DNA of 64,000 nucleotides from Bacteroidota bacterium (GTDB lineage Bacteria; Bacteroidota; Bacteroidia; NS11-12g; UBA9320): NCBI GenBank assembly GCA_018700895.1, contig JABIUV010000052.1, forward strand, positions 56,491-120,490, read 5' to 3'. The position numbers and the translations under genes are program-made. Positions 59,669 to 64,000 of this stretch are shown here, one piece after another. Position 1 is the first letter of the stretch, and the number at the start of each line of letters is the position of its first letter. Below the pieces are notes generated by a model. That model had not been told where the DNA came from, did no database searches, and saw only the letters and a program-made list of their open reading frames with translations.

Positions 59669-59745
59669 GCCTTCATAGCTCAGCTGGTTAGAGCGGTTGA
59701 CTGTTAATCAATAGGTCCCTGGTTCGAGTCCAGGTGAGGGCGCCA
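59669..59745 (+). tRNA. tRNA-Asn (anticodon GTT), with encoded CCA
   Basis: Cloverleaf: GCCTTCA/TGAGGGC acceptor, GCTC D-stem, GTTGA-CTGTTAA-TCAAT anticodon arm, CCTGG-TTCGAGT-CCAGG T arm. Confidence 0.95.
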
Positions 59746-61270
59746 TTATAGACAGGAGGTCATTTTTGACCTCCTTTTTATTTACATCATTTCTCAAAAC
59801 CTTGCTGGCCAACAGAATAGATTCAATCTCTGGAGTGAATATCTGGTTGCAACTCTCAAAATCAAAATTTTCGAAGTTTTCCTTAAAGATGCAACCAAGA
59901 ATTTTCCTTTTAGTCTCACCATCCGCCTCATCCCAATACTGGCTTAGGTTTTCAATCATTGGAAGAGTTTTATTGAGATACACCTTAAAAGGACTCTTTA
60001 CAGACTTCAAATTTGATAGTTGATCCTTTTTTTCACTAATCTCAGACTCAATTCTGGACTTCATCCCATTGTAATCAACGGAGGTAATATCTCCATCAAG
60101 AAAAGAATTCTGTAGTTTTAATTGTCGACGACCATAGTTTTCAATTGACTCATTTAATCGCTTGATTTCAGTCTTTCTTGTGACATCCTCTCTATCTATC
60201 AGTGCCTCAAGCTGCGATTTGTAAACCTTAACCATACCTGCAGTAAAAGAGATCTTATCCAAAAGGTTTTTAATCTGTTCGTGCGCCCAATCCACTCTGA
60301 ACCTTCGACATTTTGGTTTAGTACACAGATAGTAATGGTGCCAAGTTTTATTTCTACTTTGACATTTATACGCGGTAATAGCACGATCGTGTTTGGAACA
60401 TCTCATAAATCCTTTTAAAGGGTATAGGTCACTTTTTTCAGATTTAAAGTCACAATTTCTAACCCTTCCCTCCAGATAATCATTGGCCCTCTTAAAAAGG
60501 ACGTCAGACACTATCGGAGGGTGACGACCAACTATTATTTGCTCCGGTTCTTTCTTCCACGCTTTTACTTTTATTTTACCTGTGTATGCAATATTCCGGA
60601 TTGTATTATAGAAGGTTGATTTACTCAAGTAGAATGTTCCACGTTTATAAGAATACTTCTTTCCATTAATGTACTTTCTAACTTCATTGGCTGAATATAT
60701 TCCTAGAGCAAATCTTTCGAAACATTCTTTTATGTATGGTGCAGCCTCGTTTGGTATTAAGGTTGACTTGTTGTCAATCTTGCAATTATCATAACCACGA
60801 GGAGCAGCACCTGTCCAACAGCCTTCAATGCGCGACCTCCTCATCCCTTCAGTAGTTCTAATACTGTTTTTATCGTTTTCAACTTCTGGGAGTGTCAGGT
60901 ATAAGCTCAAAAGCACCTTACTGTCTGGGCTTGAAAGGTCTATTGGCTGTTCCACCGTTGATATGAGGACTCCGTATTTTTCTAGTGTTTTAATTTCTTT
61001 GAGTGCCAAATATTGATTCCTTGACCAACGGTCCCAACGAAGACATAATATCTGATCTACCTCACCCCTATTCTTCTTGAGATAATTTATAATTTTAACC
61101 CATTCTGGACGATTAAAATCTTTACCACTAAAATCTTCAGTGTATATATTTACAATAGGGTAATTATTCATTTCACAGTATTGTCTCATTACACTTTCCT
61201 GATGTTGAAGTGAATATCCTCGATCGGCTTGATCATCAGTGCTTACCCGTTTGTAGATAATTGTTCTCAT
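59708..61270 (-). CDS. Large serine recombinase (site-specific integrase)
   Basis: YKRVSTDDQADRGYSLQHQ catalytic region, RWDRWSRN, recombinase domain, zinc-ribbon Cys residues, coiled coil; C-terminus MAPSPGLEPGTY antisense to tRNA. Confidence 0.95.
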   Translation of the reverse strand: MRTIIYKRVSTDDQADRGYSLQHQESVMRQYCEMNNYPIVNIYTEDFSGKDFNRPEWVKIINYLKKNRGEVDQILCLRWDRWSRNQYLALKEIKTLEKYGVLISTVEQPIDLSSPDSKVLLSLYLTLPEVENDKNSIRTTEGMRRSRIEGCWTGAAPRGYDNCKIDNKSTLIPNEAAPYIKECFERFALGIYSANEVRKYINGKKYSYKRGTFYLSKSTFYNTIRNIAYTGKIKVKAWKKEPEQIIVGRHPPIVSDVLFKRANDYLEGRVRNCDFKSEKSDLYPLKGFMRCSKHDRAITAYKCQSRNKTWHHYYLCTKPKCRRFRVDWAHEQIKNLLDKISFTAGMVKVYKSQLEALIDREDVTRKTEIKRLNESIENYGRRQLKLQNSFLDGDITSVDYNGMKSRIESEISEKKDQLSNLKSVKSPFKVYLNKTLPMIENLSQYWDEADGETKRKILGCIFKENFENFDFESCNQIFTPEIESILLASKVLRNDVNKKEVKNDLLSIMAPSPGLEPGTY

Positions 61271-61513: not shown

Positions 61514-63100
61514 TCAGCTCTCTTCCATATCCTTTTTATCATTCGATATATGGTTACTGGTTACGTTCCACTCCGAAATAAATTCTTCAGCTTTTTCAAT
61601 ACAATTTTTCAGAAGTGAATTCTTGAGCTCTTTATAACGTGACGGCTTGGAATCTTTTATTATTCTATTGACCATTTCGATGACATAAGATTCTTGCGTA
61701 AAATCTATCTCTTTTATGTTTTCAACTGTCAATCCGGGTTTAATACCCGTTCTCTCAGTTAAAACCGTATTCATAACATCATATAACTGATCCTTGTATT
61801 TCTGAGTTGTTAGAATTGAATCGTGAATTGTAAAAATTGGAGCTTCAGGACACAATCTGTGAAACTCAGGTACAATACAATCAAGAACTAGGTAACTTTC
61901 AGCCCTCTGGAGAAACAAGGCGAAATTTGACTTGCCAATATCTGAAAGAAGGCGTTCTATACACCTGTTTACAAATGGATAAATTCGCTTGAATAGTTTA
62001 ACACTTTCAACATTTTTACGATGTGCATACAAGTCTTGAAAGAGTAGATACATGATGCCAGACTTAATTGCATCTCTTTCTTCTGAACTTGGGAATGAGT
62101 TATTTTCCAAATGACAAATGTGGGAATAGAAATCTTCAGAAAATGGTGCGTCTCGAAACTTTTTAAATTCCTCATGATCTAAGGTGTCCGGGGAAATATC
62201 TCCTATAGGTTTACTAGAAAATTGCGCAAACATTAATGTGGAAAACATGTAAAGCATAACCTCTTTTCTTGTTTTCTTATCAATTAGATCTTTTGTTAAT
62301 CTATAGAATGAATAATCTCCTTTTTGTTTAAAGAATTGATGATTAAGCAAACTAGCTAATACATAAACCTGACTAGATTTTACATCTACTTGAATCAGTT
62401 GCTGATTGTCATATTTTAGATATCCTCTGAATTTCTTTGATATATTGGTTATTGAAGAATTGTATCTTTTATTTGATGCTGATCTACTTTTCCAAAATTC
62501 ATTTTTGTCGATATCTTCTATCAACAGTAACATCATACCTATCCAATTTTTAAGTATTTTGATTTGTTTAGGTGTTTTTAGTTGTTTTTCTACTTCCGAG
62601 TAAAACTTTATGAGTTTAGGATAAATATCATCACTCTTTATAGTGATTTTATCATTGAAGTATGAGTCTAATAGTTTTGTTTTACTCTCAATCTCCTTTT
62701 GTCTTATGGTGATGGTTTTGTATTTATATTTAACATATTGACACTTGTGTTTTAATCGATATTTGCTGCATCTGTCACCAGGGAGATAATCTTTTCCATT
62801 TTCAATTATGCCTTCTGTTTTTAGGAGATTTAATACTTTTTCGTAATCTCTGTTTAGTATTTTTTGTAATTCCTTGGAGCAAATTCTGATATGGTTATCA
62901 TGGTAAAAGTATCTTGAGTTTCGATGTGTTCTAGTTAGTCTAGATATCACCCTAACTATCTTATTTTTCACTGTCTTTTGAGTTAATCTAGATTCAATAT
63001 TTAGTTCTTGCACAAGAGATTCTGCATCGATGTTCATTGGTATTGCAACCCTATATGTATACTTTCTTACTTTCATCTTATGCTGCTTCATTAAATTCAT
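61514..63100 (-). CDS. Divergent polymerase-palm-like protein of mobile element (candidate family-A DNAP/T7 RNAP-like), N-terminal winged helix-like region
   Basis: LIQVDVKSSQVYVLASLLN (motif A-like), KKTRKEVMLYMFSTLMF (motif B/O-helix-like), PIFTIHDSILTTQ (motif C-like HDS). Confidence 0.6.
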   Translation of the reverse strand: MNLMKQHKMKVRKYTYRVAIPMNIDAESLVQELNIESRLTQKTVKNKIVRVISRLTRTHRNSRYFYHDNHIRICSKELQKILNRDYEKVLNLLKTEGIIENGKDYLPGDRCSKYRLKHKCQYVKYKYKTITIRQKEIESKTKLLDSYFNDKITIKSDDIYPKLIKFYSEVEKQLKTPKQIKILKNWIGMMLLLIEDIDKNEFWKSRSASNKRYNSSITNISKKFRGYLKYDNQQLIQVDVKSSQVYVLASLLNHQFFKQKGDYSFYRLTKDLIDKKTRKEVMLYMFSTLMFAQFSSKPIGDISPDTLDHEEFKKFRDAPFSEDFYSHICHLENNSFPSSEERDAIKSGIMYLLFQDLYAHRKNVESVKLFKRIYPFVNRCIERLLSDIGKSNFALFLQRAESYLVLDCIVPEFHRLCPEAPIFTIHDSILTTQKYKDQLYDVMNTVLTERTGIKPGLTVENIKEIDFTQESYVIEMVNRIIKDSKPSRYKELKNSLLKNCIEKAEEFISEWNVTSNHISNDKKDMEES

Positions 63101-64000
63101 TTAGGACTATTGATAATTCGTCCTGGTTAAACTCCTTCTGTGCGTTTTCCATAACCTTACATCCAACTTGATAATACTGAGATGTTAGTTCTGTTGATAG
63201 ATATCTTCGATTCAACAGATTGGCAATTCTACCCGTGGTATTAACACCTCCGAAGGGATCAAAAACTAGGTCATTCTCGTCTGTCGTCATTAAAATTGGC
63301 ACAACAGGTAACAACTCAGCCATCATTGCAGGGTGACTTAGGATAGAGGCTTCTTGAACAGGCTTATTCCCTCCAACAGCACATTTGATCATTCTATTCA
63401 CATCTTGGGCTGCTAGATGGTTATAGATCTTCTTGTAAGGTTTTGAAAGAGACTTGGATTTCTTTGAAACAACCCCATTTTGGTTTACATCCTTGGCTCC
63501 TTTGGTAATACCTATTTGTTTCTTCTCGTCTGTGTACTTCAGGTGATTGTACTTGGACTTAGCTGGATCTACAACAAACCAGAGTATTACTTCGGTATTA
63601 TTCGTAGGACGATTCACCTTTTCACCTTGAGGATGAGGGTTTGGTTTACTCCATATCAATGTATCCTTATAAGTGAGTCCCGTATGTTCTTTGATTGCAT
63701 TTTTTACTAATCCTGGAATATCAAGTGCACAACCATTTCTATAAGTTTCTCCTATATTGATCATAACATTTGATGTGGGATTTATTAGGAATTCGAACCT
63801 ACTAATGATTTTTCCAATGTTGGCAGCAAACTGTTCAGGCGTTCTTTCGTGCCCTAACTGGTCACTCCCTTCACCAGTATTATAATATCGAACCGAATAG
63901 TAAGGTATCGACGTAAAGATAAATGGAACTTGACCTTTGAATTGAACTAACTGGTTAATATCCCTACAGTTCAAATTGAAAGATGAAGATCTATCTGGAA
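63078..64000 (-). CDS. DNA methyltransferase (N4/N6 amino-MTase), partial, runs off right edge
   Basis: FTSIPYYSVRYYN motif IV variant, LIWSKPNPHPQ, VFDPFGGVNTTGRIANLLNRRYLSTEL motif I; frame remains open to 64000 beyond the listed TTG at 63974. Confidence 0.88.
   Translation of the reverse strand, partial: PDRSSSFNLNCRDINQLVQFKGQVPFIFTSIPYYSVRYYNTGEGSDQLGHERTPEQFAANIGKIISRFEFLINPTSNVMINIGETYRNGCALDIPGLVKNAIKEHTGLTYKDTLIWSKPNPHPQGEKVNRPTNNTEVILWFVVDPAKSKYNHLKYTDEKKQIGITKGAKDVNQNGVVSKKSKSLSKPYKKIYNHLAAQDVNRMIKCAVGGNKPVQEASILSHPAMMAELLPVVPILMTTDENDLVFDPFGGVNTTGRIANLLNRRYLSTELTSQYYQVGCKVMENAQKEFNQDELSIVLNEFNEAA

Follow-up and report, generated by a model that had tools for sequence, protein, structure and literature searches.

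What kind of enzyme is encoded beside the serine recombinase gene of this locus, and what would it do for the mobile element that carries it? The window, a 64,000-nucleotide stretch of a Bacteroidota genome, contains an open reading frame that a first-pass annotation, made from the letters of the DNA, had read as a divergent polymerase palm protein and as a good candidate for an undescribed polymerase-like family. Computation supports a fold class, catalytic residues, purifying selection, an operon with a methyltransferase and a tRNA-Asn location for this gene. The results probably identify its product as a TV-Pol (transposon-virus polymerase), that is, a minimal family-A-type DNA polymerase with an added N-terminal domain, acting as a PrimPol-like replication enzyme of an integrative element.

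The polymerase gene and its operon

The reading frame of 528 residues is present as annotated and spans exactly 61514–63100, but it is read from the minus strand, since 39 stops interrupt the plus strand over this interval. Its start codon is likely the ATG at 63076, giving a product of 520 residues, because a TAAGATG sequence puts this ATG directly behind the methyltransferase stop (63078) and because the sister element L023 has an equivalent start. Residues are numbered throughout on the 528-residue form. The methyltransferase gene lies upstream of the polymerase gene in the same operon, and the serine recombinase gene adjoins it downstream on the same strand (Table 1). The right end of the window is the end of contig C12 (120490 bases), where the mobile element is cut, leaving it visible in part.

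Table 1. Features of the polymerase locus, with positions in the window.
Feature	Position	Strand	Basis
tRNA-Asn(gtt), insertion site	59669..59745	+	identical copy of 59675–59739 at the far junction, G000:C49:29568-29636
Large serine recombinase (Resolvase PF00239 + Recombinase PF07508)	59708..61270	-	1e-24 and 9e-14; 3' end inside the tRNA gene
TV-Pol-type polymerase gene	61514..63076	-	520 residues from ATG 63076; frame open to ATG 63100 (528 residues)
H426-D427, motif C (FTIHDSI)	61820..61825	-	41/41; hairpin 423–432
LQxxE motif (Q398, E401) in helix 390–416	61898..61909	-	41/41; also in Ma-LMM01 MAP_030
True motif B, R342-D-A-I-K346, in O-helix (339–354)	62063..62077	-	K346 41/41
Variable low-confidence insert, residues 275–293, first taken for motif B: KKTRKEVMLYMFSTLMFAQ	62222..62278	-	pLDDT below 50 over 276–299; R278/K279 gaps in 32/41 rows
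Q244, Gln at +5 from the motif-A Asp, corresponding to the Pol I steric gate E710	62369..62371	-	41/41; equivalence from spacing
D239, motif A catalytic Asp (LIQVDVKSSQ)	62384..62386	-	41/41; end of strand 233–240
R212, Arg at beta hairpin (Pol I R668-like position)	62465..62467	-	41/41; hairpin strands 204–206 and 213–215
Two-helix thumb (residues 156–198; helices 156–173 and 177–198)	62507..62635	-	AlphaFold model
N-terminal helical, possibly winged-helix, domain (residues 1–140)	62681..63100	-	AlphaFold secondary structure; putative function
DNA methyltransferase (N6_N4_Mtase, PF01555)	63078..64000	-	3e-29; 5' end cut off at contig end; sister copy in L023

Predicted structure of the polymerase

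The structure was predicted with AlphaFold from alignment A4, whose 41 rows comprise the polymerase and its homologues and which is also the basis of all residue conservation counts. The full-length model has a mean pLDDT of 83, and the core modelled alone (residues 140–466) has a pLDDT of 85.6 and a pTM of 0.86. Residues 1–140 fold as a separate part of the model. For the stretch read at the outset as a winged helix (residues 73–116), the prediction gives helices 38–61 and 75–95 with short strands after them, an arrangement compatible with such a fold.

Foldseek comparison with the PDB gives a consistent answer as to fold. For the full-length model, each of the best 50 matches is a family-A DNA polymerase; the lowest E is 1.5e-4, and 12 of these matches fall below 0.001. 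This is also the case for the best 50 matches of the core, for which 88 have E below 0.001 and the best reaches 9.8e-6. RNA polymerases of the T7 type are absent from the best 50 in both searches. Structure matches in BFVD include phage proteins named DNA polymerase. Global TM-scores are modest (up to 0.53 for the core) and r.m.s.d.'s large, as would be expected if the thumb and fingers of the model were oriented differently. The palm assignment therefore draws on the consistent family among the fold matches together with the conserved residues, both of which agree with the polymerase palm proposed in the first-pass annotation.

Catalytic residues and the position of motif B

Invariant in all 41 rows of A4 are R212, D239, Q244, Y325, K346, Q398, E401, H426 and D427, while R342 is Arg in 36 rows and Lys in 5. 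The conserved residues fall on the thumb, hairpin, palm and fingers elements of the model. Motifs A and C had been placed correctly from the start: D239 and D427 lie on predicted palm strands, with the His-Asp pair at the turn between strands 423–425 and 428–432, and both Asp residues are retained by every homologue in the alignment. From order and spacing, we take R212, D239, Q244, R342 and K346 to be the equivalents of R668, D705, E710, R754 and K758 in Pol I, and Q398, H426 and D427 those of Q849, H881 and D882. The position equivalent to Pol I F762 is Met in this polymerase and mostly Phe, Met or Leu among its homologues. A further position is of interest for substrate choice. In T7 RNA polymerase it is occupied by a Tyr that helps to select rNTPs; spacing puts F354 here, which is Phe in 36 of the 41 rows and Tyr in 5.

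Motif B had been assigned to RKEVMLYMF within the insert listed in Table 1, which most homologues lack. The O-helix motif is instead R342-x3-K346. Since motif B had been misplaced, the accompanying claim that motifs A and B are about 40 residues apart, closer than in Pol I, was wrong as well: the distance from D239 to R342 is 103 residues.

Membership of the TV-Pol family

Sequence searches gave little guidance as to family. Neither the single protein (against Pfam, PHROG and NCBIfam) nor the 41-member alignment (against Pfam and PHROGs) produced a convincing or informative match, and PDB sequences were equally uninformative for both. The polymerase protein has no match to PF00476 (Pol I) or to an exonuclease or other nuclease family, in keeping with the exonuclease domain having been reported as absent at the outset. 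In a HMMER profile search, Pol I, T7 RNA polymerase and the Ma-LMM01 ORFs gave no significant match. The hhalign alignment with Pol I was out of register, the Pol I alignment being a low-diversity profile from one order. Profile–profile alignment with T7 RNA polymerase covers motif C alone, pairing HDS and the next segment with HDSFGT, and that with MAP_030 of phage Ma-LMM01 covers the LQxxE region alone (P about 0.02). Because direct sequence comparison is weak, the match to MAP_030 being limited to this region, we argue membership of the TV-Pol family from features, fold and context.

The family was defined by Iyer, Abhiman and Aravind in 2008 and has members from Bacteroidetes (PMC2579912). 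Some TV-Pols reside in mobile elements with serine resolvases, one subset combines an N-terminal domain with nearby genes for gamma-delta resolvases, integrases and the like, and another subset is linked to a D5-like helicase; nuclease fusions are said never to occur (PMC2579912). The present protein resembles these enzymes in its length (400–600 residues), its residence in a mobile element with a resolvase or integrase and its Bacteroidetes origin, and its separately folded N-terminal part may correspond to the extra domain of the resolvase- and integrase-linked subset. Its two catalytic palm Asp residues are invariant and sit on predicted palm strands, and an Arg-bearing hairpin is predicted around the equally invariant R212. 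The two-helix thumb is N-terminal to the palm, and the fingers that come after motif A carry a helical RxxxK (R342/K346). There is no nuclease domain in this protein, and the adjoining serine recombinase provides the resolvase, integrase or transposase neighbourhood. A D5-like helicase, which marks a different subset and not the whole family, is found neither in the portion of the element before the contig end nor recurrently near homologues. What distinguishes this polymerase from other TV-Pols is its place in a six-row clade found mostly with serine recombinases, along with its operonic DNA methyltransferase.

Three known systems help to place the enzyme. Pol I enzymes (Klenow, Taq, Bst and apPol) share its fold and catalytic residues, but the present protein is much shorter, lacks exonuclease domains and has about 10–15% identity to them. 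SCCmec CcPol, which is assigned to the TV-Pol group, polymerises DNA and primes it with its partner MP (PMC7581432), and PolA–SSB pairs occur in Bacillota elements (PMC10061031). As in CcPol–MP and PolA–SSB systems, a minimal family-A polymerase here accompanies large serine recombinase(s) in an integrative element, with restriction-modification-type cargo nearby. CcPol differs in being close to bacterial Pol I, in having no N-terminal domain and in keeping the equivalents of E710 and F762, which are Gln and Met in this polymerase. Moreover, CcPol has an OB-fold SSB and a helicase as partners, whereas in the window the polymerase gene stands between those for a methyltransferase and a serine recombinase, with the remainder of the element beyond the contig end.

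The third system is Microcystis phage Ma-LMM01, which is listed as a TV-Pol source (PMC2579912). MAP_030 shares with our protein the motif order R...R, YDxxxCH, VK..LA, LLQxxE, QHDG, and transposase genes adjoin it; on these two grounds MAP_030 is provisionally assigned as the TV-Pol of the phage. The two proteins have little overall sequence similarity, and motif details differ. MAP_030-like genes are also found near a resolvase or recombinase gene on Calothrix plasmid6 (L149) and Polaromonas pH8NP1 (L150), plasmids of 13.7 and 11.2 kb, respectively.

Homologues and their neighbourhoods

A single-protein search found a full-length relative with 45% identity in genome G017 of the same genus, relatives with 22–36% identity spread across Bacteroidota, and a relative on a Hymenobacter plasmid. 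Weak relatives occur in uncultured phages of 595–735 kb: L019, L020 and L021 (LR745206, LR756511 and LR756502), H4, H5 and H23. Scanning one genome for each GTDB species with a profile gave 46 loci, which by their record titles are nearly all from Bacteroidota. Together with the window and L023 these make up the 48 loci whose neighbourhoods were clustered, L036 and L023 being the same locus.

A tyrosine integrase is near the polymerase in 29 of the 48 loci, and the serine-recombinase cluster of the window in 7. AAA_24 ATPase, DUF3871, HTH_17 and RadC proteins are other frequent neighbours. Defence genes are also found nearby, namely a type I methyltransferase in L043, a type IIG enzyme in L065 and a cytosine methyltransferase in L077; BREX genes (BrxA, BrxB, BrxC and PglX) lie near the homologous polymerase of L037 (L037:12664-21501). 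No replicative helicase is present in the window's part of the element, and no replicative helicase family recurs among 72 selected neighbouring proteins (Pfam). Likewise, no SSB-like partner was identified in the window or found to recur among these 72 proteins.

The tree groups the window protein with L036–L040 in a six-row clade with a support of 98. Four of the six rows have serine recombinases only and one has both kinds, and L039 has neither by this clustering. The polymerase at L046:9377-11437 (the same protein as L008) has a C-terminal extension that reads like a GIY-YIG-type endonuclease, and one A4 member matches NUMOD4 and HNH_3. A genome from a different genus of this bacterial family has short matches to the polymerase C terminus (G001:C25:7458-7622 and G001:C28:35038-35223), which are probably remnants.

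Insertion at tRNA-Asn

The serine recombinase ORF ends inside the tRNA-Asn gene. The second copy of this tRNA gene, on C49, is at the contig end and is without its first bases. Empty sites are seen in G014, G022, G027, G019 and G025, where the flanking genes are 253–518 bp apart with tRNA-Asn between them. The gene to the left of tRNA-Asn is, from its sequence, presumably 2-keto-4-pentenoate hydratase-like; the right flanking gene of the empty sites is found on C49 in the window's genome.

The 118 bases beside the C49 tRNA copy are about 96% identical to the beginning of a tyrosine-integrase gene at the right end of a second island in this genome. That island, on C25 (G000:C25:46308-53452, L106), is about 7 kb long, lies in tRNA-Met and has no polymerase. 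With these bases recognized as a tyrosine-integrase gene start, the C49 copy was rejected as the right-hand boundary of the element with the serine recombinase. A match on contig C79 of G017, which is terminator-like only and has no tRNA, was also discarded. Because the far junction matches a tyrosine-integrase gene start, two layouts would fit: either one insertion runs from the recombinase–polymerase–methyltransferase module on the left to a tyrosine integrase on the right, or two elements lie in tandem. The serine-integrase element of the first-pass annotation thus stands as to its mobile context and adjoining serine recombinase, but this recombinase is a candidate integrase for the whole insertion, given that the far tRNA-Asn junction abuts the tyrosine-integrase gene start. 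In two genomes without this polymerase, the genes flanking tRNA-Asn are about 8–11 kb apart (G029:C7:1342-9725 and G013:C133:434-11273), and other insertions may also favour this site.

Apparent replacement of the polymerase gene

Comparison of the window with the G017 module revealed an uneven pattern of divergence. DNA identity is 75–100% in the recombinase and 82–95% in the methyltransferase but 50–63% in the polymerase, with the chromosomal flank at about 70%. The drop coincides with the gene limits of the polymerase (window 61514–63100 versus L023:10937-12463, about 60% identical). Values of dS are 0.34 for the recombinase and 0.48 for the methyltransferase, whereas the polymerase reaches about 2.4, close to saturation. 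At this near-saturated dS, the dN/dS of the polymerase against its sister gene is about 0.2. Low identity in the polymerase, high identity in both flanking genes and breakpoints at the gene limits together point to replacement of the complete polymerase gene between elements whose other genes are related, apparently under purifying selection. This apparent gene swap, the serine-recombinase-linked sub-lineage and the relatives in the 595–735 kb phages are new here.

Alternative readings and proposed mechanism

That the protein polymerises DNA, that it primes de novo and what its N-terminal part does are inferences from these data: the polymerase is probably active, and a priming or replication role for the mobile element is plausible. 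The enzyme might instead depend on primers, filling gaps or making repair-like patches of DNA once the element has integrated or excised, while host DnaG primes. We consider this a real but lesser possibility. No SSB-like partner was identified beside the polymerase gene, and CcPol without MP only extends primers (PMC7581432, PMC10061031). On the other hand, TV-Pols are found elsewhere in the place of primase modules (PMC2579912). Furthermore, the template could be bound through the added N-terminal domain, and the window holds part of the element, such that a partner could lie beyond the contig end.

It is unlikely that the protein is a T7-type enzyme, whether an RNA polymerase or an RNA primase. 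The alignment of motif C with HDSFGT and the replacement of the Glu steric gate by Gln would suit such an enzyme, as would the primase ability proposed by Iyer et al. (PMC2579912), but the best 50 PDB fold matches are all DNA polymerases, and the rNTP-selecting position, as placed by spacing, has F354 rather than an invariant Tyr.

We give scant credence to a categorically undescribed polymerase family, and the proposal to that effect in the first-pass annotation is not supported. Pfam, PHROG and NCBIfam indeed hold no convincing match, and sequence profiles give no link to Pol I or the Ma-LMM01 protein. Absence from model libraries is not, however, absence from the literature: all four TV-Pol structural features and the matching context are found in a protein from a phylum that already had members in the family as published in 2008 (PMC2579912). 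This is not a new kind of polymerase. Finally, loss of the active-site Asp is known from some RRM-only relatives carried by Bacillota elements (PMC10061031), but it is highly improbable that this protein is a dead relic or has a purely structural palm fold, given catalytic residues invariant in 41 aligned sequences and a dN/dS of about 0.2.

The reading of the protein as a TV-Pol replication enzyme has points counted against it. Profile links to Pol I, T7 RNA polymerase and MAP_030 are weak. No replicative helicase or proven SSB partner was found in the window or as a recurrent family among the 72 neighbouring proteins, whereas the case for priming by TV-Pols depends partly on linkage to a helicase. 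Q244 also stands where CcPol retains the Glu steric gate. As a TV-Pol, its core consists of the two-helix thumb, the Arg-bearing hairpin, an RRM palm (D239, D427) and fingers with R342xxxK346. The element would first be excised by the recombinase, after which the N-terminal domain would bring the polymerase to element DNA. The core would then make and extend short primers on a single-stranded template by two-metal catalysis, and the element would be copied independently of host primase. More speculatively, and with rather low probability, the enzyme could represent a stand-alone TV-Pol primase-polymerase sub-lineage of serine-recombinase elements that works without a helicase or SSB partner, its N-terminal DNA-binding domain targeting the origin and its Gln gate leading to ribonucleotide starts with DNA continuation.

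Implications for the TV-Pol family

These results add to the TV-Pol family a compact, well-supported member and a clade linked to serine recombinases. No Pfam, PHROG or NCBIfam model recognizes the protein, so genes of this sort tend toward annotation as 'hypothetical'. The activity of TV-Pols appears to have been tested in the literature mainly for enzymes of SCC elements. The 520-residue enzyme of this operon bears on the prediction made in 2008 that TV-Pols with an N-terminal domain prime alone (PMC2579912).
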